Positions 4,672 to 58,029 of a stretch of 64,000 bases of DNA are shown here, piece after piece (position 1 is the stretch's first letter; each line of letters opens with the position of its first letter). This DNA is from Propioniciclava flava. GTDB lineage: Bacteria; Actinomycetota; Actinomycetes; Propionibacteriales; Propionibacteriaceae. Both the position numbers and the translations under genes were made by a program. The stretch lies in NCBI RefSeq assembly GCF_004126535.1, contig NZ_PPCV01000006.1:124001-188000 (forward strand), read 5' to 3'. A model generated the notes under the pieces. The model ran no database searches, was not told the DNA's origin, and worked only from the letters and a program-made list of their open reading frames with translations.

Positions 4672-6096
4672 CTAATAGACCAGCGCTTCGTCGCCCGCAG
4701 TGCCGTGCAACCGGCGTGCGGCCTCCCCTACCGATCCGGACAGCGACGGGTAGACGGTGAAGACCTGCGCGAGTTGGTCCACCGTGATCTTGGCCCGCAC
4801 CGCCAACGACAAGGTGTGAATGAGTTCGCTGGCATGCGGGGCCACGATCACCCCGCCGATCACGATGCCGGTGGTGGGCAGGCAGAAGACCTTGATGAAC
4901 CCGTCCTTGAGGCCCTGCATCTTGGCGCGAGCATTCGACCCCAACTGCAGCATCACCTCGCGGGCGCGCACGACCCCGGCTTCCACTTCGCCCTGGGTGA
5001 CGCCCACGGTCGCGATCTCGGGGGCGGTGAAGACATTGGCAGCCACGACCTTCAGATCCAGCGGCTCCACGGCGTCCCCGAGCGCGTGCCACATGGCGAT
5101 CCGGCCCTGCATGGCGGCGACCGAGGCCAAGTTGAACACGCCCGTGCAGTCGCCCGCCGCGTAGACGTCGCGTGCGGTCGTCCGCGACACCCGGTCCACC
5201 ACGATCTGGCCCCCTGGACGGGTGTGGATCCCAGCCTCTTCCAGCCCCAGCCCGTCCGTGTTCGGCACCGCGCCCACCGCCATCAAGACGTGGCTGCCCT
5301 CGACGGTGCGGCCATCCTCCAGCGTCACCACGACGCCATCCCCGACGACGGCGGCAGCGACGGCGCGCGCCCGGGACATGATGGTCATGCCGGACTCCTC
5401 GAACACCGACTGCAAAACGCGGCCGGCGTCCTCGTCTTCGCTGGGCAGCACCTGATTGCGTGAGGACACCAGCACCACATCCACCCCGAGCGCGTTGTAG
5501 GCGCTGGCGAACTCGGCCCCTGTCACGCCGGAACCGACCACGATGAGACGCCTGGGGAGTTCGGTGAGGGTGTACATCTGTGTCCAGTTCAAGATCCGCT
5601 GGCCGTCACAGGGCGCATCGGGCAACTCGCGAGGCCGCGCCCCCGTCGCGATGAGGATGATGTCGGCGGGCAACAGCTCCGAGGTGCCATCGGCGTGGGT
5701 AGCGAGCACCGATTCGGGACCGTCCAGCCTGCCGGTGCCCTGGATGATGCGGACCCCTTCGGCCAACAGCCGGGCGCGAATGTCCACCGACTGCTGCGCC
5801 GCGAGTTCCACGATCCGCGCGTTGACGCGGCCAAGATCGACCGTGATGGTGTCGGCCACCGTCCGGCCCGGGGGTTCTTGCTGATCGGGGCACAGGCCCA
5901 GATCGTCGGCGCGCGCGATCTGCGACATGACCTCCGCGGTCGCGATCAAGGTCTTCGACGGGACGACGTCGGTCAGCACCGCTGCACCGCCCATGCCCCG
6001 GCGCTCGATGAGGGTCACTTTTCCCCCCAGTTGCTGCCCCACCAGTGCGGCCTCATAGCCGCCGGGACCACCCCCGATGATCACCACGTGCGTCAT
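4672..6096 (-). CDS. lpdA: LpdA-like NAD(P)H:quinone flavoprotein lacking the redox disulfide
   Basis: A 474-residue class I pyridine nucleotide-disulfide oxidoreductase-fold protein: FAD motif GGGPGGYEA (8-16), NAD(P) motif VVGSGVTGAEFASA, second FAD motif YAAGDCTG, and a dimerisation domain with YPSLSGSVGEAAR at the end. Where dihydrolipoamide dehydrogenases have C-x4-C, this protein reads GGAAVLTDVVPSK (36-48), so both catalytic cysteines are replaced (Ala39, Val44). The C-terminal His-x4-Glu catalytic pair is also absent. That fits the mycobacterial LpdA (Rv3303c) type NAD(P)H-quinone reductases rather than a lipoamide dehydrogenase. It is transcribed divergently from the nucleoside salvage operon. 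Confidence 0.82.
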   Translation of the reverse strand: MTHVVIIGGGPGGYEAALVGQQLGGKVTLIERRGMGGAAVLTDVVPSKTLIATAEVMSQIARADDLGLCPDQQEPPGRTVADTITVDLGRVNARIVELAAQQSVDIRARLLAEGVRIIQGTGRLDGPESVLATHADGTSELLPADIILIATGARPRELPDAPCDGQRILNWTQMYTLTELPRRLIVVGSGVTGAEFASAYNALGVDVVLVSSRNQVLPSEDEDAGRVLQSVFEESGMTIMSRARAVAAAVVGDGVVVTLEDGRTVEGSHVLMAVGAVPNTDGLGLEEAGIHTRPGGQIVVDRVSRTTARDVYAAGDCTGVFNLASVAAMQGRIAMWHALGDAVEPLDLKVVAANVFTAPEIATVGVTQGEVEAGVVRAREVMLQLGSNARAKMQGLKDGFIKVFCLPTTGIVIGGVIVAPHASELIHTLSLAVRAKITVDQLAQVFTVYPSLSGSVGEAARRLHGTAGDEALVY

Positions 6097-6103
6097 GGCC
6101 CGG

Positions 6104-6109
6104 ATTCTC
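6104..6109 (-). promoter_or_regulatory. Putative -10 box of lpdA (leaderless)
   Basis: GAGAAT on the minus strand ends 7 nt before the lpdA ATG, the same spacing as at many starts in this window. Confidence 0.4.
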
Positions 6110-6156
6110 CCACGCCGGACGCCACCGGGGCGAAGCGAACCGGGCTACCTCGCCAC

Positions 6157-6162
6157 TATGCT
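6157..6162 (+). promoter_or_regulatory. Putative -10 box of the purine nucleoside phosphorylase operon
   Basis: TATGCT ends 6 nt before ATG 6169. The spacer (GCGAGG) could also act as a weak ribosome binding site on a longer transcript. Confidence 0.5.
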
Positions 6163-6168
6163 GCGAGG

Positions 6169-6975
6169 ATGACCGAACAGCCCGATCCCTACGCGCTCGC
6201 TACGGACGCCGCTTCCGCCTTGACGAAGCGTTTGGGAGTCCCCGCCGTCGACGCCGCGATCGTGCTCGGGTCAGGGTGGGCTACGGCCGCTGCCGACCTG
6301 GGCGAGACGCTCGCCGAGATTCCCCTCACTGACCTCCCCGGTTTCGCTGCCCCCGTCGTCGCGGGGCACGGCGGGACGGTGCGCGCCCTCCGCACCCCCG
6401 CCGACCGGATTGTCCTGTGCTTCACCGGCCGCACGCACCTGTACGAGGGGCGCGGGGCGCACGCCGTGGTTCATGGGGTCCGCACGGCGGCCGCCGCGGG
6501 CGCTCGGCGGCTGGTCGTCACGAATGGCTGCGGTGGGTTGAACCCGGCCTGGGGGCCCGGAACCCCAGTGCTGATCCGCGACCACATCAACCTCACCGGC
6601 GCCACCCCCTTGGTCGGCCCGCGTTTCGTCGATCTCACCCAGGCCTACTCTCCGCAACTGCGCGACCTGGCCCGCAGCGTCGATCCGGGGCTCGACGAGG
6701 GCGTCTACGTCCAGTTCCACGGGCCTGCCTACGAGACGCCCGCCGAGGTGCGGATGGCGGGCATTCTGGGCGGATCTCTCGTGGGCATGTCCACCGCCCT
6801 GGAGACCATCGCCGCGCGCGAGGCTGGCATGGACGTGCTCGGCATCTCGCTGGTCACCAACGCCGCGGCCGGGCTGGGCGGGGAGACGCTGAACCATGCT
6901 GAGGTGATCGAGGCGGGCGCACGGGCCGTTCCCCGGTTGCGGACGCTGCTGTCGGGACTCCTGGAGGTGCTGTGA
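6169..6975 (+). CDS. Purine-nucleoside phosphorylase (trimeric, class II)
   Basis: A 268-residue phosphorolytic enzyme that splits inosine or guanosine with phosphate into base and (deoxy)ribose-1-phosphate. Family landmarks are VLGSGW (phosphate loop), GRTHLYEG, NGCGGLNP, the purine-site GPAYETPAEVR, GMSTALE and LVTNAAAG with the base-binding Asn. Length and motifs fit the PunA/human PNP trimer type rather than hexameric DeoD. The start is ATG 6169, 6 nt after a TATGCT box. The stop TGA overlaps the next gene's ATG by one base, so the released sugar phosphate is likely handed to the downstream mutase. Confidence 0.9.
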   Translation: MTEQPDPYALATDAASALTKRLGVPAVDAAIVLGSGWATAAADLGETLAEIPLTDLPGFAAPVVAGHGGTVRALRTPADRIVLCFTGRTHLYEGRGAHAVVHGVRTAAAAGARRLVVTNGCGGLNPAWGPGTPVLIRDHINLTGATPLVGPRFVDLTQAYSPQLRDLARSVDPGLDEGVYVQFHGPAYETPAEVRMAGILGGSLVGMSTALETIAAREAGMDVLGISLVTNAAAGLGGETLNHAEVIEAGARAVPRLRTLLSGLLEVL

Positions 6976-8624
6976 TGTTGAGCGAAGAACGCCTCGCGAC
7001 CCTGCGGGCTTGGCAGGCGCAGGATCCGGACCCCGCCACGGTGGCTGCCCTGGATCACCTCATCGAGCGGGCCGAGCACGGCGACGCGGAGGCCGTCACC
7101 GAAATCGTGGACGCCTTCGCCGGACGCCTTGCCTTCGGGACGGCGGGCCTGCGCGCCGCACTGGGTGCCGGCCCCAACCGCATGAACCGTGTGGTGGTCT
7201 CCCAGGCCGCCGCTGGCCTGGCCCGCTGGCTGGTGGCCAACGGGCACCGTGGGGAGCGCGTCATCGTCGGATACGACGCCCGCTACAACTCCGACGTGTT
7301 CGCCCGCGACACCGCCGAGATCCTCGCCGGGCACGGCCTGGTGCCGCTGCTGACCGACCGGCACGTTCCCACGCCGCTGGTCGCCTTCGCGCTGGGGGAA
7401 CTGGGCTGCGCGGCGGGCGTCATGGTGACGGCGTCCCACAATCCACCCCAAGACAACGGCTACAAGGTTTATGTGGGGCGCTCGCAGATCGTCTCCCCCA
7501 CCGACGCGGAGATCGCCGCCCACATCGACGCGGTCGCCGACGCCCCCGTGGCCGACATTCCTCGCTCGGAGGACTACTCGCTCGTGGGCGAGGAACTCGT
7601 GAACGCCTACGTGGCCCGGGACGCCTCTCTGGTGCCCGCTGAGGCCCCGCGAGAGCTCGTCTGGGCCTACACCCCACTCCACGGCGTCGGGGCCGACATC
7701 GTGGCCCGCGTCCTGACCGCCACCGGGTTCCCCCCGCCCGCGCTGGTGGATTCCCAGGCTGTTCCCGACCCGGCCTTCCCGACCGTGGCTTTCCCCAACC
7801 CCGAAGAGCCGGGTGCGATGGATCTGGCGCTCGCGCTCGCCGACGAGGTGGGCGCGGACGTCGCGATCGCTAACGATCCCGATGCCGACCGGTGCGCGCT
7901 GGCTGCGCCCTTCGCCGGGGTCTGGCGGATGCTCAGCGGCGACGAGTTGGGGTGGCTGCTGGCCGACGACGCCCTCGCGCGTGGCGCACAAGGCACCTAC
8001 GCCTGCTCGGTGGTGTCTTCCACGATGCTCTCGGCCATGGCCGCCGCAGGCGGGCAGCCGTTCGCGACGACGCTGACCGGGTTCAAGTGGATCGGTCGCG
8101 TTCCCGGGCTGGCGTTCGGCTACGAGGAAGCCATCGGGTATTGCACCGATCCGGCCGCCGTCGCCGACAAGGACGGCATCTCCACGCTGACCCGGCTACT
8201 CACCTTGGTGGCCCGGCTCAAGGCGAACGGGGAGAGCGTCGCGGACCGGCTCGATGCGCTTGCGCGGCGCTTCGGCGTCCATCTCACTGCGCCCCTGTCG
8301 TTCCGGGTGGCCGACCTGTCTTTGATCAGCGACGCCATGGCGCGGCTTCGCCAGCACCTACCGGCAGCCCTCGCTGGTGTCGCGGTGGAAGCATCCGACC
8401 TCAACGATGGCTGGAACGGCCTCCCGCCCACCGACGGCGTCCTGTTCGAGGGTGCCGGGGTGCGCGCCGTCGCCCGTCCCTCGGGCACCGAGCCGAAGCT
8501 GAAGGTCTACCTACAAGTGAGCCTCCCGCCCGAGCAGTCATCCGACCTTGTCCTAGCGCGGGCCACGGCTGCGGCGACCATGACCCAGCTCAAAGCCGAC
8601 ATGACGGCTGCCCTGGGCTTGTGA
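6975..8624 (+). CDS. Phosphosugar mutase (PGM2/phosphopentomutase-like)
   Basis: A 549-residue alpha-D-phosphohexomutase superfamily enzyme. TASHNP (Ser154) is the phosphoserine loop, NDPDADR near residue 300 the metal loop, GYEEAIGY the sugar-binding loop, and RPSGTEPKLKVY the phosphate-binding loop. The long form and the position after a purine nucleoside phosphorylase suggest it isomerises ribose-1-phosphate or deoxyribose-1-phosphate to the 5-phosphate, although glucose-1-phosphate is also a usual substrate. ATG 6975 is preferred over GTG 6972 because GGAGG (6963-6967) is then at normal spacing. Confidence 0.85.
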   Translation: MLSEERLATLRAWQAQDPDPATVAALDHLIERAEHGDAEAVTEIVDAFAGRLAFGTAGLRAALGAGPNRMNRVVVSQAAAGLARWLVANGHRGERVIVGYDARYNSDVFARDTAEILAGHGLVPLLTDRHVPTPLVAFALGELGCAAGVMVTASHNPPQDNGYKVYVGRSQIVSPTDAEIAAHIDAVADAPVADIPRSEDYSLVGEELVNAYVARDASLVPAEAPRELVWAYTPLHGVGADIVARVLTATGFPPPALVDSQAVPDPAFPTVAFPNPEEPGAMDLALALADEVGADVAIANDPDADRCALAAPFAGVWRMLSGDELGWLLADDALARGAQGTYACSVVSSTMLSAMAAAGGQPFATTLTGFKWIGRVPGLAFGYEEAIGYCTDPAAVADKDGISTLTRLLTLVARLKANGESVADRLDALARRFGVHLTAPLSFRVADLSLISDAMARLRQHLPAALAGVAVEASDLNDGWNGLPPTDGVLFEGAGVRAVARPSGTEPKLKVYLQVSLPPEQSSDLVLARATAAATMTQLKADMTAALGL

Positions 8625-9190
8625 CCCACCTCGTCCTGCTCGCGGGCCCCTCGGGAGGCGGCAAGTCCCGCCTGGCCCGGCTCGCGGGAGCCCTGCCCGT
8701 TCGGTTGGACGACTTCTACCGCGACGCCGACGCGCCCGGGCTCCCGTGCGCGCACGGGATCATCGATTGGGACGACCCCGCGACCTGGGACGGCGACGGC
8801 GCCCTGGAGGCCTTGCGGGCGCTGCTGCAAGAGGGGGTGGCGGTCGTCCCCACCTATTCGATTGCCCAGTCTCGCCGGGTCGGGGAGCACACTTTGGAAG
8901 TGGGCGAGCATCGGCTCATCGTGGCCGAGGGCATCTTCGCCCTTGACCTGCTTCCGCTGCTGCGTGAGGCAGGGTTGCCGGTCAGTGCGGTGTATCTGGA
9001 TCGCAACCGCTGGCTGGTGGCAGGGCTGCGCCTGCGCCGCGACCTAGCTCAACACCGCAAGTCACCGGGGGTGTTGGTGCGACGGGGCTGGTCGTTGCTG
9101 TGCGCCCAGCCGCGCCAGCGTCAGCGCGCCCTCGCCGCGGGGTTCCGCCCGTTGAGCATGCGGGCCGCGCTGGACGAACTAGCAGACTGA
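8621..9190 (+). CDS. Uridine kinase-like P-loop protein
   Basis: A 189-residue P-loop kinase with Walker A GPSGGGKS (9-16), then LDDFYRD, which matches the Asp-Asp-Phe-Tyr substrate region of uridine kinases and phosphoribulokinases, and a VAEGIFA strand. The GTG start overlaps the mutase stop by 4 nt (GTGA), so the three genes form one coupled nucleoside salvage unit. The protein is shorter than canonical Udk and lacks an obvious full lid; uridine as substrate is an inference from motifs and operon. Confidence 0.75.
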   Translation: MTHLVLLAGPSGGGKSRLARLAGALPVRLDDFYRDADAPGLPCAHGIIDWDDPATWDGDGALEALRALLQEGVAVVPTYSIAQSRRVGEHTLEVGEHRLIVAEGIFALDLLPLLREAGLPVSAVYLDRNRWLVAGLRLRRDLAQHRKSPGVLVRRGWSLLCAQPRQRQRALAAGFRPLSMRAALDELAD

Positions 9191-9236
9191 CGCGATCGCC
9201 GGGGCCCGCGCACGCGTGACCCCGACGACCGGCGAC

Positions 9237-10457
9237 TCACTCGTGCGGTTCCGCAGCCCGCTGGGGCGCCACGAAGCCGGGTTGGTCCTCCACCGACCCC
9301 GTGTCGCCGATGAGGTCCTCCGCCGAGCCCGTGCCGGCGATGAGTTCCTCGACCGGGCTGGTCGGCGCGCCGGGGTTCAAGGCCTGCGGGGGCGTCGAGA
9401 CGCCGCCATGCTCGATGCGCTTGGCCTCCTCGATTGCCTGCTGCACCTGCGCCTGCGACTGCGCTTCCTCGGCCCGCTTCGCGTCCGCGATCTCGGCGAA
9501 CACGTCCACCCGCTCAGGGGCGGTGTAGCGGCTCGGATCGGCCTTAGTAAACGACTTCACCGCGTCGCCCACCGGACCACCCAGGCCCTTGAGGGCGTCG
9601 TTGAGTTCGCTGGGGATGATCCAGACCTTGTTGGCGTCGCCCTTGGCCAGCTCCGGCAGCATCTGCAGGTACTGGTAGGACAGCAACGCCTGATCCGGCT
9701 CGGCGGCGTGAATGGCGTTGAAGACGGTCGTGATGGCTTGGGCTTCGCCCTCGGCCCGCAGCATCGCCGCCTGCCGATCCGCCTGCGCACGGAGCACGGC
9801 GGACTCCCGCTCGCCTTGGGCGCGCAGGATGCTGGACTCGCGATCGCCGGACGCCGACAGGATCTGTGACTGCCGCTGCCCCTCGGCCAGCAGCACCTGC
9901 GCACGCTTCTCGCGTTCGGCGCGAGCGCCCTTCTCCATCGCATCGCGGATCGTCGCGGGCGGCTCGATGGAGCGCAACTCCACCCGGTTGACCTTGATGC
10001 CCCACTTGCCGGTGGCCTCATCCAAGACGGTGCGCAGCTTCTGGTTGATGTCCTCGCGGCTGGTGAGGGTCTCCTCCAGGTCCATGCCGCCGATGATGTT
10101 GCGCAGCGTGGTTTGGGTGAGCTGTTCGATGGCCTGGATGTAGTTCTGCGCCTCGTAGGCGGCACGAACCGGATCGACGATCTGGTAGTAGATGACCGAG
10201 TCGATGCCCACCATCAGGTTGTCTTCGGTGATGACGCCTTGTGGGGGGAACGGGACGACGGCTTCGCGCATGTCCATCGTGTAGGCCACCCGATCCAGGA
10301 ACGGGAGAATCAGGTGCAGGCCTGGCTCGATCGTGCGGTGGAACTTGCCCAGCCGTTGGACGATGCCCAACTGCTGCTGCTGGATCACGCGTACTGACAG
10401 CCCAAGCGCCACGCCCACCACGGCGAGCACGACCACGGCAAGGATCACAAACTCCAT
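9237..10457 (-). CDS. SPFH/band 7 (stomatin-like) membrane scaffold protein
   Basis: A 406-residue protein: one N-terminal transmembrane helix (residues 3-25), an SPFH domain from about residue 28 (QQQQLGIVQRLGKFHRTIEPGL) to 200, then a long coiled coil with repeating RESSILRAQGERES-type heptads (about 200-250), and a Pro/Ala/Gly-rich tail. Family members oligomerise into membrane microdomain scaffolds and influence proteolysis or membrane fluidity. AAGGAG five nucleotides before the ATG supports the start. The adjacent nfeD gene is the classic partner of SPFH genes. Confidence 0.88.
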   Translation of the reverse strand: MEFVILAVVVLAVVGVALGLSVRVIQQQQLGIVQRLGKFHRTIEPGLHLILPFLDRVAYTMDMREAVVPFPPQGVITEDNLMVGIDSVIYYQIVDPVRAAYEAQNYIQAIEQLTQTTLRNIIGGMDLEETLTSREDINQKLRTVLDEATGKWGIKVNRVELRSIEPPATIRDAMEKGARAEREKRAQVLLAEGQRQSQILSASGDRESSILRAQGERESAVLRAQADRQAAMLRAEGEAQAITTVFNAIHAAEPDQALLSYQYLQMLPELAKGDANKVWIIPSELNDALKGLGGPVGDAVKSFTKADPSRYTAPERVDVFAEIADAKRAEEAQSQAQVQQAIEEAKRIEHGGVSTPPQALNPGAPTSPVEELIAGTGSAEDLIGDTGSVEDQPGFVAPQRAAEPHE

Positions 10458-10554
10458 CCCGACTCCTTCTCATAGGGGTGTTGTTGCCCACACCCTAGCG
10501 AGTCAGATAGGCCCCCGGGCAGGGGCCGCGTGGGGGGGTGGAGAGCCGGATCGG

Positions 10555-11028
10555 TCAGGCTTCGCCGCGGCGCAGGGGCTTGTCCCGTGGCTGCACCACC
10601 ACGGTGAGGTCGTCGACCTCGATCACGTCCACCTCGACACCGTCGGGGATCGCGTCGCCGTCGTAGCTGCGCGCCGTCCACGTTTCCCCGTTCACGGTCA
10701 CCTCGCCACCGGACGCGGTGACCTCACCCGTCGTGCGGCCGACACCGCCCAGCAACTGCTGGAAGGTGCTGCGATACCCGGGGCCGCGATGCAGCCGCTT
10801 GAGCACCTGCGGACGCAAGAAGCCCAGCAGCGCGACGGCCACGACGGCGGCCACCACGATCTGCACCCACACCAACGCCGGGAAGAACACTGCGACGCCC
10901 GCGCCAGCCAGCGCCCCGCCGGCCAGCATCAACAGCGTCATGTCCAAGGTGAGCATCTCTGAGACGGCCAGGCCACCGGCGGCGACCAGCCACAGCGTCC
11001 AGATGTTCTGCTGCACCCACTCCCACAT
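10555..11028 (-). CDS. NfeD-like membrane protein
   Basis: The 157-residue protein has three to four transmembrane helices (about residues 10-80) followed by a soluble five-stranded OB-fold domain (GEVTASGGEVTVNGETWTARSYDG) typical of the short NfeD family. It lacks the N-terminal protease domain of long NfeD proteins. It lies 97 bp upstream of the SPFH gene on the same strand; NfeD OB domains are thought to bind SPFH oligomers. The start codon is 6 nt after the stop of the upstream ABC ATPase, indicating one transcript. Confidence 0.85.
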   Translation of the reverse strand: MWEWVQQNIWTLWLVAAGGLAVSEMLTLDMTLLMLAGGALAGAGVAVFFPALVWVQIVVAAVVAVALLGFLRPQVLKRLHRGPGYRSTFQQLLGGVGRTTGEVTASGGEVTVNGETWTARSYDGDAIPDGVEVDVIEVDDLTVVVQPRDKPLRRGEA

Positions 11029-52357: not shown

Positions 52358-52606
52358 ATGGGTATCGGCGACAAGATCTCTAACAAGGCTGAGGAACTCG
52401 GCGGCAAGATCGAGCGGGCGGTCGGTGATCTCACCGACAACGAAGAGCTCGAGGCCAAGGGCGCGGCGAAGGAAGCCGCGGCAAAGGCCAAGCAGGCCGG
52501 TGAACAGGTGAAGGACGCCGCGAAGGGTGTCGTCGACGACGTCAAGGACGCCGCGAAGGGTGTCGTCGACGACGTCAAGGACGCCGTCAACGACGCGACG
52601 AAGTAA
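52358..52606 (+). CDS. CsbD family stress protein with duplicated segment
   Basis: An 82-residue, highly charged helical protein. DKISNKAEELGGKIERAVGD matches the CsbD consensus (K-x-E-E-x-x-G-K-x-K-x-x-x-G), and the rest is an amphipathic KDA repeat. VKDAAKGVVDD occurs twice, encoded by an exact 33-bp tandem DNA repeat. CsbD proteins are abundant general-stress proteins without a known biochemical activity. GGGGG lies 6 nt before the ATG. Confidence 0.88.
   Translation: MGIGDKISNKAEELGGKIERAVGDLTDNEELEAKGAAKEAAAKAKQAGEQVKDAAKGVVDDVKDAAKGVVDDVKDAVNDATK
52514..52579 (+). repeat. 33-bp perfect tandem repeat within csbD
   Basis: Two identical 11-codon units (52514-52546, 52547-52579) beginning GACGCCGCG, followed by a third partial start (GACGCCGTC). 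Confidence 0.95.
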
Positions 52607-52682: not shown

Positions 52683-52785
52683 GCTGTAGCCTGGGAGGGA
52701 CCCACGTGGGGGAACCGGGTGCAAGTCCCGGGCTGACCCGCAACCGTGATGCGCTTGTCGCTACAGCCGGAGCACCTGTGTGAGC
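52683..52785 (+). promoter_or_regulatory. Cobalamin riboswitch
   Basis: The conserved core GGGAACCGGGTGCAAGTCCC followed by GGGCTGACCCGCAACCGTGA (52709-52749) is the class II consensus of cobalamin aptamers, with a B12-box-like AGCCGGAGCACCTG at 52765-52778. GCTGTAGC (52683-52690) pairs perfectly with GCTACAGC (52760-52767). About 80-100 nt separate it from the first start codon, room for an expression platform acting on the ribosome binding site or a terminator. It indicates repression of the downstream operon by cobalamin. Confidence 0.93.
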
Positions 52786-52864
52786 CAGAACAAGCAACGA
52801 CCCGTCGAGGAGCGCGGGCGGCGACCACGACATCATCCCCGTTGAACGGCCTCCGCGTGACTCA

Positions 52865-53920
52865 GTGAGGAACTCGATCCGGATGATTCTGCGACGCTCC
52901 ACCGTGGTGGCATGGCTCGCCACCGTACTCGCGCTGTTGGTCGGGCTGGCAGTGCCCGCCCAGGCCGCCGACCTCGGCGCTGCACAGCGGGCCACCGCAT
53001 GGATGGGCCAGCAGAGCATCGACGATCCGGGCAAGGTCGCCGACGCTCTCATCGCGTTGGCCGCAAGCAACGATCCCACCCAGGCGCCCGTCGTTGACCG
53101 CCTCACCACCACGTTGAAGGACAAGGGCGCCGCCTACGCTGCGGGCGCCCCGGAGGCTGCAGCCAAGGTGGCCGTTGCTCTGGAAGCCGTCGGAGCCGAC
53201 CCGCGTACCGCGCTGGGCACCGACCTGATCGCCGCCGTCAAGAATGGCATCGCCTCCGATGGCAGCTTCGGTAGCTACCCTGGCCCGTTCGCGAGCGGTC
53301 TCGCGGCGGTGGCCCTGACACGCGCCGACGAGGACGTCCCCGCAGCGTTGGGCACCAACCTCCTCACCTTTCAAGGCAAGGACGGCGGGTTCAGCTATCA
53401 GGCCGGGCAGCCCTCCGACGCCGACTCCACTGCGCTCGCCCTCCAAGCACTGACGGCGCTGGGCGATGACGCCTCCATCCGCAAGGCCGTGGCCTGGGCA
53501 GACCAGAACATCCAGCCGGACGGCTCCTACGCGGGTTACAACCCGGTCAACTCGACAGCGGTCATGGCTTCTGCGCTCGCGGCCACGGGGAAGAACGTGG
53601 ACGCCTCGGTCATTTATCTCACCTCCCAGCAGCAGGCTGACGGCTCCTTCTTGAACGCGGGTACACCCGACGTTTTGGCCACGGCGCAGGCGGCCTTGGG
53701 GTTGTCGGGTGTCTCCTACCTGGACGCCACCTGGTCGGGGAGTCCCGCCGCTAGCGGCACCCCCTCCCCCGCTGGGTCCTCGACGGCCACGCCCGCCGCA
53801 GTCCCGGCCACGCCGGCGGCTGGCTGGCTGGATCCCAGCGCCTGGTTGGGCAGCGCGGCAGCCCTGGTGGTCGTGGTGGGTGCCGTGGTAGTCGGACTGC
53901 GCCGCCCCTCTCGTCGATGA
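52865..53920 (+). CDS. Secreted alpha/alpha-toroid protein of the B12 operon (transcobalamin alpha-domain-like)
   Basis: The 351-residue protein has a signal peptide ending VPAQA-AD, four to five repeats around D-G-S/G-F motifs (DGSFGSYPGPFASGLAAVAL, DGGFSYQAG, PDGSYAGYNPVNST, ADGSFLNAG) separated by paired helices, a Ser/Pro/Ala linker, and a C-terminal helix with an RRPSRR tail. The repeats are of the prenyltransferase/squalene-oxidase type, the same alpha6/alpha6 superfamily as the alpha domain of transcobalamin and intrinsic factor. With the riboswitch and ECF genes, I infer an anchored cobalamin-binding receptor, not a terpene enzyme. GTG 52865 is given; ATG 52883 with GAGGA upstream is equally possible. 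Confidence 0.75.
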   Translation: MRNSIRMILRRSTVVAWLATVLALLVGLAVPAQAADLGAAQRATAWMGQQSIDDPGKVADALIALAASNDPTQAPVVDRLTTTLKDKGAAYAAGAPEAAAKVAVALEAVGADPRTALGTDLIAAVKNGIASDGSFGSYPGPFASGLAAVALTRADEDVPAALGTNLLTFQGKDGGFSYQAGQPSDADSTALALQALTALGDDASIRKAVAWADQNIQPDGSYAGYNPVNSTAVMASALAATGKNVDASVIYLTSQQQADGSFLNAGTPDVLATAQAALGLSGVSYLDATWSGSPAASGTPSPAGSSTATPAAVPATPAAGWLDPSAWLGSAAALVVVVGAVVVGLRRPSRR

Positions 53921-54534
53921 AGCGGGGGCGCATCGGCGCCGCCCTTGCCGCCGCGCTCCTGGTGTCGGGGGCTGCGGCAACCCCCGTTGCGGCCGCGCCC
54001 GAGTCGGACGCCACTTCCTGTGCGGGGGTCTGGGTCGTCGTGGAGGGGGACCGTGCTGGCTGCGCGGCAGCGTTCTCCTCAGGCCAAGAAGCCCTCGTCT
54101 CGGCTGGGTTCACCACCCAGGACTCCTCCCCCGGGTTGCTGTGCCGCATCGATGAGGTGCCCGCCGTCTGCACCGTCAAGCCGAGCGCCTACTGGTCTTA
54201 CTGGCAAGCCACTCGCGATGCGGCGGGAGGTTTCGGCCCCTGGACGTACTCATCGCTGGGGTATGCCAACTCCCGTCCGCAGGCGGGCAACGCTGAGGGA
54301 TGGGTCTTTGGCGACGGCTCGCAGCCACCAGCACCCCTGACTCCTGCGGCGGCCGCGCAGCTCTCCGCCAGCTCGACGCCGCTCTCACCCGTTGTGCCCT
54401 CGACCCCGTCAGCACCGGCGTCCGCGGCGCCCGCCGGGAGCAGTGATGGGACCGGTGCCGCCATCACGGGCGGCATCGTGCTCGTCGCCGTGGCCATCAC
54501 CGTCGTCGTCCTCGTACGGCGCCGCCGCGCATGA
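53917..54534 (+). CDS. Secreted anchored beta-type domain of the B12 operon (DUF4430-like)
   Basis: The 205-residue protein has a signal peptide (to about residue 27), a domain with four cysteines (Cys35, Cys49, Cys76, Cys85 or nearby) and conserved-looking YWSYWQATRD, GPWTYSSLGYANSRP and EGWVFGDG, then a Ser/Pro/Ala stalk and a C-terminal helix with RRRRA. The Y-W-S-Y-W and G-W-x-x-G-D pattern resembles the DUF4430-type domain, which is also the beta domain of transcobalamin and intrinsic factor. ATGA overlap with the toroid gene suggests the two form one bipartite binder. Assignment to DUF4430 is by eye. Confidence 0.68.
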   Translation: MKRGRIGAALAAALLVSGAAATPVAAAPESDATSCAGVWVVVEGDRAGCAAAFSSGQEALVSAGFTTQDSSPGLLCRIDEVPAVCTVKPSAYWSYWQATRDAAGGFGPWTYSSLGYANSRPQAGNAEGWVFGDGSQPPAPLTPAAAAQLSASSTPLSPVVPSTPSAPASAAPAGSSDGTGAAITGGIVLVAVAITVVVLVRRRRA

Positions 54535-55634
54535 CGCCCGTACACCCCTGGGCCTGGTGGGCGTGGGCGCTCGGCTTGGCCGCGGCCCTGTCCATGACGA
54601 CCAATCCCCTGCAGATCGTCTTGATCGTGTTGGCCGTGTGCGCGGTCGTCCTCCTGCGCCGTAGCGATGCCCCCTGGGCACGCTCACTGCGGATCTACGC
54701 CGTCTTGGCCGCCTTCATCATCGCCATGCGGCTCTTCTTCTTCATCGTGATGGGGTCTGGAGGCGGCACCACCGTCTTGTTCACGCTCCCACAGATCGAG
54801 CTACCGTCATGGGCCGCTGGCATTCGCTTGGGTGGGCCGGTCAGCGCGGAGGGCCTGGTGTTCACCCTCTACGACGCAGGTCGTCTCGCGGCGATGCTCC
54901 TGTGTCTGGGTGCCGCCAACGCGCTGGCCAATCCCAAGCGCGCTTTACGTAGTGTTCCCGCAGCCCTCTATGAGGCTTCGGTTGCGGTCGTCATCGCGTT
55001 GTCGGTGGCTCCGCAACTGGTGGAATCGGTGCAGCGGGTTCGTCGTGCCCGACGGTTGCGCGGGGGTGCTGCTCGTGGTTGGAACGCCGTGACGGCGGTC
55101 GTGATTCCTGTGCTGGCCGACGCGATCGACCGCTCGCTGAGCCTGGCCGCAGGCATGGAGGCGCGCGGTTTCGGTCGTACCCGCGATCAACGTCCGCCCT
55201 CCCCTGCGCTCACGGGAGGCCTGCTGGCGGCCATGCTCGCGGCCACTCTCGGCGCGTTCCTCCTCCTGGGTTCGGCCTCCCCGCCGCTGGGGGGAGCCCT
55301 GCTCGTCCTCGGTGTGGCCGGGACCGTGTGGGGATTACGCGTCGGAGGGCGCCGGCTTTCGGTCACCCGCTATCGGCCGGATCCTTGGACGGCGCGCGAC
55401 TCCCTCTTGGCCGCCTCCGGGTGCGCCGCAGCGGCCACCATGGCGCTCGTCGGCACAGGTGAGTGGCCGACCCTGTACGCGGCCTTCCACCCTGCTACCT
55501 CGCCCCTGACCTGGCCGACACTGCACCCCCTCATGCTGGTCGTGGCGGGGCTCGCCGTGGCCCCGCTGGCCCTCACTCGCGCGCCCCTGCCCGCAACGAC
55601 CCATCCCGGCCACCTGGGTGAGGCGGCCGCATGA
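54531..55634 (+). CDS. ECF transporter transmembrane (T) component
   Basis: A 367-residue EcfT/CbiQ family protein with N-terminal helices (about 8-100), then the coupling-helix region with two Arg motifs, VESVQRVRRARRLRG and LAAGMEARGFGR, which dock on the two ATPases. Additional hydrophobic helices follow up to residue 350, making it longer than the typical 260-residue EcfT. Starts at ATG overlapping the upstream stop. It should couple the fused ATPase to the S component encoded at the end of the operon. Confidence 0.88.
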   Translation: MTPVHPWAWWAWALGLAAALSMTTNPLQIVLIVLAVCAVVLLRRSDAPWARSLRIYAVLAAFIIAMRLFFFIVMGSGGGTTVLFTLPQIELPSWAAGIRLGGPVSAEGLVFTLYDAGRLAAMLLCLGAANALANPKRALRSVPAALYEASVAVVIALSVAPQLVESVQRVRRARRLRGGAARGWNAVTAVVIPVLADAIDRSLSLAAGMEARGFGRTRDQRPPSPALTGGLLAAMLAATLGAFLLLGSASPPLGGALLVLGVAGTVWGLRVGGRRLSVTRYRPDPWTARDSLLAASGCAAAATMALVGTGEWPTLYAAFHPATSPLTWPTLHPLMLVVAGLAVAPLALTRAPLPATTHPGHLGEAAA

Positions 55635-57217
55635 TTACCTTCGAGGACGTCACCCTCACCTATCCGGGAGCATCCGAGCCCACCCTGCGCGAGGTCAGCT
55701 TCACCGTGGAGGAAGGTGACTTGGCCGTCGTGGTGGGGCGGACGGGAACCGGGAAGTCGACCCTGCTGGGAGCGATCAACGGCCTGGTGCCCCACTTCAC
55801 CGGAGGCACGCTGGCGGGCGATGTTCGCGTCGCTGGGCGTTCCACCGCGCACAACCGTCCCCGTGACCTGGCCGACGTCGTGGGCTGGGTCGGACAAGAC
55901 CCTCGGGCCGGATTCGTCACCGACACCGTCGAGGAGGAGATCGCCTACGGCATGGAGCAGTTGGGTCTGCGGCCCGCGGCGATGCGTAAGCGTGTCGAGG
56001 AAACCCTCGACCTCATGGGAATCGCGGCCCTGCGTCGGCGTCCGCTGGCCGACCTGTCGGGCGGGCAACAGCAGCGCGTGGCGATCGCCGCCGTGTTGGC
56101 AGCGCAGCCGCGCGTGCTGGTCCTCGACGAGCCAACGTCGGCGCTGGATCCCACTGCCGCCCAGGACGTCTTGAGCGCGTTGACGTCACTCGTGCATGAG
56201 GTGGGACTGACCGTCGTGCTGGCCGAGCATCGCCTCGAGCGGGTCCTGCACCAGGCCGACACGCTCCTCTGGTTGCCACAGGACACGCACGGCGTGGTCG
56301 TCGGGCCGCCCTCGCGCCTCCTCCTGACGTGCGATGTGCGCCCTCCGCTGGCACAACTGGCGCGAGCGCTGCACTGGGACGCCGTCCCCGCCTCCGTCCG
56401 CGATGCTCGCCGCCGGGTGCAGCGGGAGCATCTCAGGGTGACGGCGCCAGCAGTCGTGCCGTTGAGCACCGCCCCAGCTCGGGTGTCCGTGCGCGACCTC
56501 ACGATCTCCTACGGGTCACTCACCGCAGTCAACCGCCTCAGTCTCGATCTTCGTCCCGGCGAAGTGACCGCGCTCATGGGGCGCAACGGCGCCGGAAAGT
56601 CGTCATTGTTGTGGGCGCTTCAAGGGGGGCTCCCCAGCACAGGCTCGGTCAGCGTCGATGGGCGGGACCCCCGCACCCTGTCGGCGCCTCAGGCCCGTCG
56701 CCTGGTGAGCCTTGTCCCGCAGACGGCGACCGACTTGCTCTACCTTCCCACCGTGGCAGCAGAGCTGGCTCAAGCCGACCGCGAGACCGGCAGCCAGCCC
56801 GGAACCGCGGCGGAGATTCTGTCGTCCCTGGGATCACGGCTGCCACCGCAGGCCGATCCCCGTGACCTGTCCGAGGGGCAGCGGCTCAGTTTGGTCCTCG
56901 CACTCCAGTTGTGCGCCGAACCGGGAGTGATTCTGCTCGACGAGCCGACGCGCGGCCTGGACTACGCCATGAAGGATCACCTGAGCAGGACCGTGTCCCG
57001 TCTGGCACACGAGGGTCACGTCGTGGTCGTCAGCACCCATGACGTTGAGTTCGCCGCCGCCAGTCAGCGCACCCTCGTGATGGCGGACGGCGACGTCATC
57101 GCGGACGGACCCACCCGCGAGGTGCTGACCAGTAGCCCGGCTTTCGCACCCCAGACCACCAAGGTCTTCTCCCCCACGGCCGTTCTGGTCCCGGACGAGG
57201 TAAGGGGGGCCCGATGA
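55631..57217 (+). CDS. ECF transporter ATPase, two EcfA domains fused
   Basis: A 528-residue protein with two complete ABC domains. Domain 1: Walker A GRTGTGKST (36-44), Q-loop WVGQDP, signature LSGGQQQR, Walker B VLVLDEPTSALDP, H-loop LAEHRLE. Domain 2 (from about 280): GRNGAGKSS, LVPQTA, LSEGQRLSL, VILLDEPTRGLDYAMKD, STHDVEF. It replaces the separate EcfA1 and EcfA2 subunits and powers vitamin import. ATGA overlaps at both ends show tight coupling. Confidence 0.92.
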   Translation: MITFEDVTLTYPGASEPTLREVSFTVEEGDLAVVVGRTGTGKSTLLGAINGLVPHFTGGTLAGDVRVAGRSTAHNRPRDLADVVGWVGQDPRAGFVTDTVEEEIAYGMEQLGLRPAAMRKRVEETLDLMGIAALRRRPLADLSGGQQQRVAIAAVLAAQPRVLVLDEPTSALDPTAAQDVLSALTSLVHEVGLTVVLAEHRLERVLHQADTLLWLPQDTHGVVVGPPSRLLLTCDVRPPLAQLARALHWDAVPASVRDARRRVQREHLRVTAPAVVPLSTAPARVSVRDLTISYGSLTAVNRLSLDLRPGEVTALMGRNGAGKSSLLWALQGGLPSTGSVSVDGRDPRTLSAPQARRLVSLVPQTATDLLYLPTVAAELAQADRETGSQPGTAAEILSSLGSRLPPQADPRDLSEGQRLSLVLALQLCAEPGVILLDEPTRGLDYAMKDHLSRTVSRLAHEGHVVVVSTHDVEFAAASQRTLVMADGDVIADGPTREVLTSSPAFAPQTTKVFSPTAVLVPDEVRGAR

Positions 57218-58029
57218 GCCTGGCCACCCGATCCTCATCCACCACGCGAACGATCAGCGCAGGCACGTCGGCGCCCCGGACTCAGGCGCGCACCGCGTTG
57301 CTCCTCGTCGTCGCCGCGGCGGCAGGGCTGGCCGCTTTCACGTGGCCTTTGGTCTGGACGCCGGGCTCTGCGGTCAGTCCGCTGCAGGCGCCGCTGATCT
57401 TCGCGCTGGTCCTTCCGCTGATCCTGGCCGTGGTCGTCTCCGACCTGACCGGTCACGGGATGGATGTGAAGGGGCTGGCCATGCTCGGCGTGCTGGCAGC
57501 CGTCGGGGCGATCTTGCGTCCGTTGGGCACCGGGACGGCAGGGATGGAACCGGTCTTCTTTCTCCTCATCCTTGGCGGGCGGGCCTTCGGGCCTTCCTTC
57601 GGGTTCGCTCAAGGGGCGATCACCTTGTTCGCGTCATCGTTGCTGACAGCGGGCGTCGGGCCGTGGCTGCCCTATCAGATGATCGCGGCTGGGTTTGTGG
57701 GGCTGGGCGCGGGGCTGCTGCCGCGGGCGCGCGGAGGGTGCGAGATCGCCTTGCTGGCGTGCTGGGGATTCGTCTCGGCCTTCGCCTACGGCTGGCTGAT
57801 GGACTTCGCGTTTTGGCCTTTCGGGCTGGGGACCTCAACACAGTTCTCCTTCGATCCGGCGGCTGGTCCCTGGCGCAACCTGCACGTGTTCGTCCTCTAC
57901 AACATGGTCACCTCGATGGGGTGGAATCTTGGCCGCGCCCTCACCAGCGTGGTGCTGATCGTGCTCCTGGGGCCAGGACTGCTGCACATCCTCAGGCGCG
58001 CCGCGCGCCGCGCCGCATTCGCCAATTGA
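57214..58029 (+). CDS. ECF transporter substrate-binding (S) component, probably for cobalamin
   Basis: A 271-residue membrane protein with a Ser/Thr-rich cytoplasmic N terminus and about six helices. EPVFFLLILGGRAFGPSFGF, with the conserved G-x-x-x-G near helix 3, and GFVSAFAYGWLMDFAFWPFG are typical of CbrT-like ECF S components, whose substrates include cobalamin and precursors. The specificity call rests mainly on the riboswitch. Last gene of the operon. Confidence 0.83.
   Translation: MSLATRSSSTTRTISAGTSAPRTQARTALLLVVAAAAGLAAFTWPLVWTPGSAVSPLQAPLIFALVLPLILAVVVSDLTGHGMDVKGLAMLGVLAAVGAILRPLGTGTAGMEPVFFLLILGGRAFGPSFGFAQGAITLFASSLLTAGVGPWLPYQMIAAGFVGLGAGLLPRARGGCEIALLACWGFVSAFAYGWLMDFAFWPFGLGTSTQFSFDPAAGPWRNLHVFVLYNMVTSMGWNLGRALTSVVLIVLLGPGLLHILRRAARRAAFAN

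Follow-up and report, generated by a model that had tools for sequence, protein, structure and literature searches.

Transcobalamin-like proteins of the SLBB superfamily were predicted by Burroughs et al. to scavenge vitamin B12 (2007, Biol Direct 2:4; PMC1796856). As given in the sections of that paper drawn on here, the clade was assigned to low-GC Gram-positives, planctomycetes and euryarchaea, and its hosts were usually without key B12 enzymes; the word riboswitch is never used in these sections, and the species list of Figure 1 contains Kineococcus and Corynebacterium with their clade not discernible. In an excerpt on the Lactobacillus proteome (PMC9963975), one annotation reads 'additional lipoprotein component of putative cobalamin ECF transporter' and a DUF4430 protein stands beside rtpR. 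The notion of an extra outer component of an energy-coupling factor (ECF) transporter thus already exists in annotation. The transporter ECF-CbrT itself stems from the cluster nrdJ-cbrS-cbrT-pduO, which includes cbrS, according to the available part of its description (PMC5997447). Here we report on an operon within a 64,000-nucleotide stretch of Propioniciclava flava (contig NZ_PPCV01000006.1, positions 124,001 to 188,000; hereafter the window), where a cobalamin riboswitch precedes genes for two predicted secreted proteins, P1 and P2, and for EcfT, EcfA and S component of an ECF importer (T-A-S). Some actinobacteria appear to carry split halves of the animal B12 carrier, tethered at the surface, beside a B12-regulated importer.

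We consider it probable that this operon encodes an importer of B12 (cobamide) that has a dedicated receptor on the outer side of the membrane, with P1 and P2 forming a clamp that hands the ligand over to the S component. Both proteins would be secreted and tethered at the outer face of the membrane, each by its own stalk and single membrane helix. The toroid of P1 and the beta-grasp domain of P2 would clamp one cobamide between them, like the alpha and beta domains of transcobalamin, and the cobamide would then be passed to the S component, whose cargo would be driven inward by EcfT and the EcfA pair at the expense of ATP. The leader riboswitch would lower operon expression once the cell has enough B12. 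We infer B12 as the ligand, the sandwich, the complex, the hand-over and the riboswitch control in vivo; the sandwich follows the account of transcobalamin in the cited sections of PMC1796856, whose source is Wuerges et al. 2006.

Operon layout and predicted folds of P1 and P2

The five open reading frames are all on the forward strand and are joined by four 4-nt ATGA overlaps (Table 1). As the array recurs in other genera, it is beyond chance. Upstream of it, the RF00174 cobalamin aptamer was matched by cmscan at 32.8 bits, marginally above the gathering score of 31.5 (E 5.4e-5 for the 24 kb scanned and 1.6e-6 in a whole-genome search). The true start of P1 may be not GTG 52865 but ATG 52883, which GAGGAA precedes by 10 nt. 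Both P1 and P2 carry an N-terminal hydrophobic segment (residues 14-32 and 6-24, respectively) as well as a C-terminal one, which is preceded by a stalk with many P, A, S and T residues and followed by basic residues.

The AlphaFold model of P1, built with 14 sequences, displays 12 helices arranged as an alpha6/alpha6 toroid (predicted local distance difference test, pLDDT, 95; predicted template modelling score, pTM, 0.91). In the Foldseek search with this model, transcobalamin appears from rank 12, intrinsic factor at rank 26 and haptocorrin at rank 35, with E-values of 1.6e-5 to 2.2e-4. The transport proteins downstream were recognized as well: EcfT matched the CbiQ family (PF02361) at 42.1 bits, the cut-off being 25; the EcfA chain holds two stretches of ABC_tran in one protein; and the S component has six hydrophobic segments, in line with a small six-helix S protein. 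An earlier note on this DNA had claimed the aptamer, the five genes coupled by overlaps, the secretion, stalk and C-terminal helix of the first two proteins, the alpha/alpha toroid, the small aromatic (Tyr/Trp-rich) domain, and the EcfT, fused EcfA-EcfA and S component; each of these was borne out.

The P2 model (20 sequences; pLDDT 88, pTM 0.81) follows the order strand-strand-helix-hairpin-strand-strand, its elements being E14-18, E22-26, H32-38, E43-47, E50-54, E67-74 and E102-108. A hairpin inserted after the helix defines the transcobalamin clade of the SLBB superfamily (PMC1796856, section on this clade), and P2 is modelled as a beta-grasp fold with a beta-hairpin at precisely this place. 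When the model was compared with the PDB by Foldseek, ranks 1-14 were all transcobalamin, with haptocorrin at rank 22 and the Ruminococcus protein 3u7z at rank 29. The resemblance of both proteins to transcobalamin that the earlier note foresaw is thus seen in both predicted folds, weakly in P2. Its mention of a DUF4430-type beta domain needs correction for P2. We rejected P2 as a member of Pfam DUF4430 (PF14478), because P2 has no Pfam match and PF14478 finds no match anywhere in the window genome. By profile-profile comparison, P2 and DUF4430 nevertheless look remotely related: hhalign of P2 against DUF4430 domains of other Actinomycetota (profile from 20 of 30 PF14478 loci) gave probabilities of 34% and 73% in the two directions with scores of 26.1 and 31.6, whereas 30 column-shuffled controls per direction did not exceed 0.84% and 1.08% or scores of 14.5 and 15.1. 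The P2 profile found no relevant match among PDB sequences. P1 and P2 also fall below the cut-offs of NCBIfam SCO2321 (54.9 of 300 bits) and SCO2322 (17.8 of 85 bits), respectively.

Across 41 P2 sequences, two cysteine columns are always paired (both present in 27, neither in 14), and a third, invariant cysteine accompanies one of two alternative N-terminal cysteine positions in 39. The paired columns would fit disulfides of an extracellular domain.

Two further observations concern the DUF4430 family. At locus L111, a P2-type operon (5996-10933), a downstream toroid gene and a true PF14478 match (about 12982) lie close together, and this genome is possibly a bridge between the two domain families. 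Several DUF4430 proteins of other Actinomycetota (L166-L188) share a DWFYYVNG-like core and a common C-terminal extension, and form a separate subfamily.

Natural fusions and genome-level linkage

The S component, used as a query over genome contigs, found 30 loci in Propionibacteriaceae, other Actinomycetota and four Chloroflexota, and is itself closest to Propionibacteriaceae. In 16 of the 22 loci taken for the riboswitch scan, P1 and/or P2 stand before the ECF genes; the remaining six are five Cutibacterium loci and L066. Across the phylum, the P2 profile gave matches in at least 65 of 396 sampled genomes, with at most 10 candidates scored per genome. Among 40 hand-chosen regions (37 from these profile matches and 3 from P2-query matches in the family), P2 occurs together with T-A-S in 34, and 27 of these 34 have a toroid as well.

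Both domains were encountered in one stop-to-stop frame in 22 cases, 14 with the toroid first and 8 with P2 first. Omitting L137, L138 and L147 as repeats of L028, L027 and L036, there are 19 distinct fusion frames, one of which (L032) is interrupted by unknown bases.

Linkage at the genome level was evaluated in the 117 genomes of the family of the window, where P2 was found in 56, P1 in 64 and S in 85; the S matches include weak ones, possibly other S components, and the P1 matches include weak toroids. S is present in 55 of 56 P2-positive genomes vs 30 of 61 P2-negative ones (Fisher p 5e-10), although P2 was sought with a single query sequence, at lower sensitivity than S and P1, for which profiles were used. 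Likewise, 62 of 64 P1-positive genomes contain S, compared with 23 of 53 P1-negative genomes. In the 40 chosen regions across the phylum, three tested P1/P2 pairs from genomes of 8-10 Mb pass the SCO2321 and SCO2322 cut-offs and are also caught by the P1 and P2 profiles.

The five Cutibacterium genomes differ in arrangement. P2 matches lie away from T-A-S in all five and toroid matches of varying strength were found in four, so that the reading of Cutibacterium as devoid of P1 and P2 was ruled out. These separated P2 genes could mean that P1 and P2 store B12 on the cell surface or compete for it there, and do not deliver it to the S component of the window. Given the strong linkage with S across genomes and the overlapping genes of the window, we regard this as very improbable. 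At the Cutibacterium locus L051, as far as can be read, the genes upstream of T-A-S match those of the window, without P1 and P2.

A number of variant proteins were noticed among the relatives. Several P2 or toroid-P2 proteins of Cutibacterium end with LPxTGV right before the stop codon and have no membrane segment or basic tail behind this sortase-like motif (L147:1609-4014, minus strand; L147:4389-6296, L151:3-785 and L152:297-2765, plus strand). SCO2322-family P2 proteins at L126:5523-7496, L132:5975-7957 and L131:6936-8954 end in the NCBIfam GPS-CTERM domain, a possible sorting signal. In the Chloroflexi locus L159, a 708-codon frame behind a cobalamin riboswitch (5032-7155, minus strand) contains two toroid domains, and the P2 gene after it encodes a hydrophobic segment at the C-terminus. 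Single frames of 1013-1196 codons on the minus strand of L129 (3608-6661), L135 (4037-7075) and L134 (3342-6929) combine an EcfT-like part, two ABC (ATP-binding cassette) ATPase domains and an S component, and possibly represent an all-in-one ECF transporter chain; those of L129 and L135 lie directly behind a small P2 gene. One genome (G083, contig C1) has three toroid matches of identical score at 1772322, 2014739 and 2107698, perhaps from a recently multiplied gene.

Riboswitches at related loci

A same-strand RF00174 match lies just upstream in 15 of the 22 related loci, with 33.0 to 58.4 bits. The operon recurs in Actinomycetota, where the earlier note had proposed a search for the pair beside ECF genes and B12 riboswitches. 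The seven loci without such a match are the five of Cutibacterium, L045 and L059. Among more distant loci, represented by 11 of the 40 chosen regions, five have the match in this position, and L111, one of the other six, has one on the opposite strand.

Receptor-like genes located away from ECF genes were scanned in 13 of 15 regions, and four of them have a same-strand riboswitch upstream, namely the Cutibacterium receptor loci L147, L152 and L154 (L154 with a score equal to the cut-off) and the Chloroflexi locus L159. A common type of switch on genes that are not linked speaks more strongly for a shared role than mere proximity would. Elsewhere in the L159 genome, another riboswitch is followed by an open reading frame that reads to us as a CobO-type adenosyltransferase, and then by T-A-S.

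The S component and its ligand

The S component has no Pfam match at E up to 1, and its match to the folT family is weak. Its profile retrieved from the PDB sequences, at E below 0.1, only a folate S component (E 0.003), and neither a cobalamin S component nor a CbrT chain. B12 riboswitches also control the uptake of cobalt and of precursors. Together with the CbiQ-like EcfT and an S component that belongs to no named family, this would suit the import of a precursor or another B12-related solute, such as cobinamide, a lower-ligand base or a cobalt complex, instead of complete cobalamin. However, the transcobalamin-type folds suit a whole corrinoid, and the genome has a separate CbiM, which adjoins a riboswitch-like match below the cut-off. 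We therefore consider a precursor ligand unlikely and retain a complete cobamide as the probable cargo.

In the 3.0-Mb, 26-contig window genome, CobN, CobD/CbiB, tetrapyrrole methylases, a CobB/CobQ-type amidotransferase, a chelatase-like protein and CbiM were found near the remaining riboswitch matches, of which two score under the cut-off. At L143:5537-7063 and L140:5789-7447, solute-binding proteins of family 5, from ABC importers of the peptide/nickel type, lie close behind cobalamin riboswitches and are possible parts of cobalt or corrinoid importers. A ribonucleotide reductase large chain with RNR_N (L139:2391-4628, minus strand) lies about 700 bases downstream of the strongest cobalamin riboswitch of the genome.

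Evidence against the proposal

Several results weigh against an importer with a P1-P2 clamp. The aptamer stretch folds no better than its shuffles (z +1.03) in addition to the marginal aptamer score, and no same-strand upstream riboswitch over the cut-off was present in 7 of 22, 6 of 11 and 9 of 13 scanned loci. The window genome holds B12-synthesis genes; if the pathway is complete, uptake would spare cost and not fill a need. The Foldseek matches of P2 to transcobalamin have E-values of 0.014-0.33 and template modelling scores (TM-scores) below 0.5, so that the fold match is consistent but weak, and the Pfam search gave P2 no match at E up to 1.

The best Foldseek matches of P1 are class II terpene cyclases, which are thus the nearest solved folds. 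On this ground the toroid could be a secreted enzyme, either class II cyclase-like or with corrinoids or the wall as its substrate, instead of a binding domain. DxDD is the signature of class II terpene cyclases, and DxDTT-type cyclases exist as well. In the corresponding DxDx stretch of the 14 aligned toroid sequences, the first Asp is kept in all and the third position is acidic in 13 (Asp 11, Glu 2, Asn 1), but DxDD itself occurs in none. The absence of active-site residues, on which the earlier note had laid weight, holds for DxDD and does not hold for the acidic middle residue. The cyclase reading is weakened by the missing motif, though DxD-like residues persist. Moreover, the protein is secreted, to where prenyl diphosphate is not expected, and in relatives the toroid is fused to the transcobalamin-type domain. 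An enzymatic role accordingly seems to us very unlikely, and a binding domain is preferred.

A different difficulty is posed by operons with P2 but no toroid match, seen at 7 of the 22 loci (L050, L052, L055, L059, L060, L063 and L064), all but L059 behind riboswitches. The toroid profile found nothing in the genomes of L050, L052 and L055 and gave weak matches of 27-77 bits in those of the other four. These P2-only operons suggest P2 as the core binder and the toroid as a widespread but dispensable partner. P2 alone might then be the cobamide receptor, with the toroid as an accessory (lid, helper or spacer); PDB entry 5np4, titled as the beta domain of human transcobalamin bound to cyanocobalamin, agrees with this. 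Such a reading overlaps with ours and would mean that the necessity of the pair is overstated. In view of the toroid in 27 of the 34 P2-T-A-S regions and the fusion of the domains at 19 distinct loci, we judge it unlikely. The split transcobalamin-like pair of the earlier note hence draws support from fusions, co-occurrence with S and riboswitches, and is qualified by the several operons that have P2 without P1.

Finally, five Cutibacterium loci carry T-A-S without P1, P2 or a riboswitch, and 10 of the 85 S-positive family genomes have neither P1 nor P2 matches. ECF-CbrT of Lactobacillus delbrueckii (eLife 2018) moves cobalamin in liposomes as ECF module plus S component, as stated in the part of PMC5997447 cited here. 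Because of these three observations, an outer receptor is not a general need. We take the most likely role of P1 and P2 to be the capture of a cobamide outside the membrane and its transfer to the S component. Whether the receptor would be obligate is another matter: an ECF transporter in which two stalked transcobalamin halves must close on one B12 and present it to S appears to us a tentative possibility, somewhat doubtful at present.

Coordinates and neighbouring genes

The features of the operon are listed in Table 1. The gene directly after the S component encodes an Fe/Mn superoxide dismutase. Between a methyltransferase gene and the riboswitch lies a gene for a CsbD-like small protein with a repeated C-terminal segment (52358-52606).

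Table 1. Features of the B12-linked operon, numbered from the first letter of the window.
Feature	Position	Strand	Basis
Cobalamin riboswitch aptamer	52710..52826	+	RF00174 model positions 46-168 of 189
P1, predicted secreted alpha6/alpha6 toroid, stalk and C-terminal membrane helix; remotely related to NCBIfam SCO2321	52865..53920	+	Open reading frame, fold model, family search
GAGGAA, possible ribosome-binding site 10 nt before ATG 52883	52867..52872	+	Sequence reading, inferred
P1 toroid core, 12 predicted helices	52973..53707	+	AlphaFold model
P1 C-terminal hydrophobic anchor, residues 327-345	53843..53899	+	Hydrophobic-segment scan
P2, predicted secreted small domain, stalk and C-terminal membrane helix; remotely related to NCBIfam SCO2322	53917..54534	+	Open reading frame, model, Foldseek
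Stretch within P2	54028..54312	+	AlphaFold model, Foldseek, profile-profile comparison
P2 C-terminal hydrophobic anchor, residues 182-200	54460..54516	+	Hydrophobic-segment scan
EcfT, CbiQ-type transmembrane protein	54531..55634	+	PF02361, 42.1 bits
EcfA-EcfA', two ABC ATPase domains, one chain	55631..57217	+	PF00005, two stretches
S component, six hydrophobic segments, predicted cobamide specificity	57214..58029	+	Segments; riboswitches and CobO-like open reading frame in relatives

Significance and comparison with known systems

The proposal gives the SCO2321 and SCO2322 families, whose NCBIfam names carry no function, a concrete and testable one, and connects both families with the fold seen in the B12 carriers of humans. 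Going by the genomes with P2 matches, capture of B12 outside the membrane may precede ECF transport in a sizeable minority of Actinomycetota; in liposomes, ECF-CbrT managed without such a stage. As P2-only, two-gene and fused forms coexist, the origin of the transcobalamin architecture becomes open to experiment. If an obligate receptor were true, ECF transporters would gain a receptor stage, which is otherwise familiar from classical ABC importers, and the P2-only, fused, reversed and two-gene versions would preserve steps toward the one-chain animal carriers.

Within the open-access literature (subscription papers and preprints being outside its scope), no paper on the function of SCO2321-SCO2325 homologues came to light, nor any with experiments on a transcobalamin-like receptor that serves an ECF transporter in bacteria. 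The relevant parts of PMC1949818, PMC12713380, PMC2667541 and PMC6072759 mention no such actinobacterial system, and PMC12075633 contains none of four terms looked for in it. The earlier note's statement that no experimental description was known holds to this extent, while the general idea was in print in 2007 (PMC1796856, sections cited above). The general concept is therefore not new; the actinobacterial, split, membrane-tethered and riboswitch-linked branch seems undescribed.

Animal transcobalamin, intrinsic factor and haptocorrin consist of an alpha6/alpha6 toroid and a small beta domain, and both window models match these parts. The animal carriers are one soluble chain taken up by receptors, whereas the window has two tethered chains beside an ATP-driven importer, and the similarity is weak. 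The single chain of transcobalamin and intrinsic factor corresponds to two genes in the window and to one frame in the fused relatives. BtuG and BtuH of Bacteroides, lipoproteins of the outer membrane with other folds, serve TonB-dependent transporters. They capture B12 at the surface before transport, as P1 and P2 are proposed to do (PMC6143338 and PMC8941943, in part). The SCO2321 (NF053823) and SCO2322 (NF040672) families occupy the same operon position in large actinobacterial genomes, with the window proteins far below both cut-offs.

ECF-CbrT shares with the window an ECF-type import of cobalamin, which is predicted for the latter. There the S component is described as the substrate-binding protein, whereas the window adds two extracellular proteins and has a dedicated module (PMC5997447, as cited). 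The Lactobacillus DUF4430 or lipoprotein component and cbrS resemble the window in that an extra protein is tied to a cobalamin ECF transporter by annotation or position; unlike the window, no toroid is mentioned in the passages of PMC9963975 and PMC5997447 concerned.

The closest likeness is to the proteins of PMC1796856, which, in the sections used here, are secreted or at the surface, combine a transcobalamin-type beta-grasp with an alpha/alpha toroid, and stand in operons with CbiO ATPase and CbiQ. Their Firmicutes fusions have either domain order, as do the relatives of the window, and some bear a Gram-positive anchor motif. In contrast to that clade, the window belongs to Actinomycetota, encodes two separate membrane-tethered proteins, includes S in the operon behind a riboswitch, and has a P2 below the DUF4430 score. 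The hosts described there usually lacked key enzymes, whereas the window genome has B12-synthesis genes.

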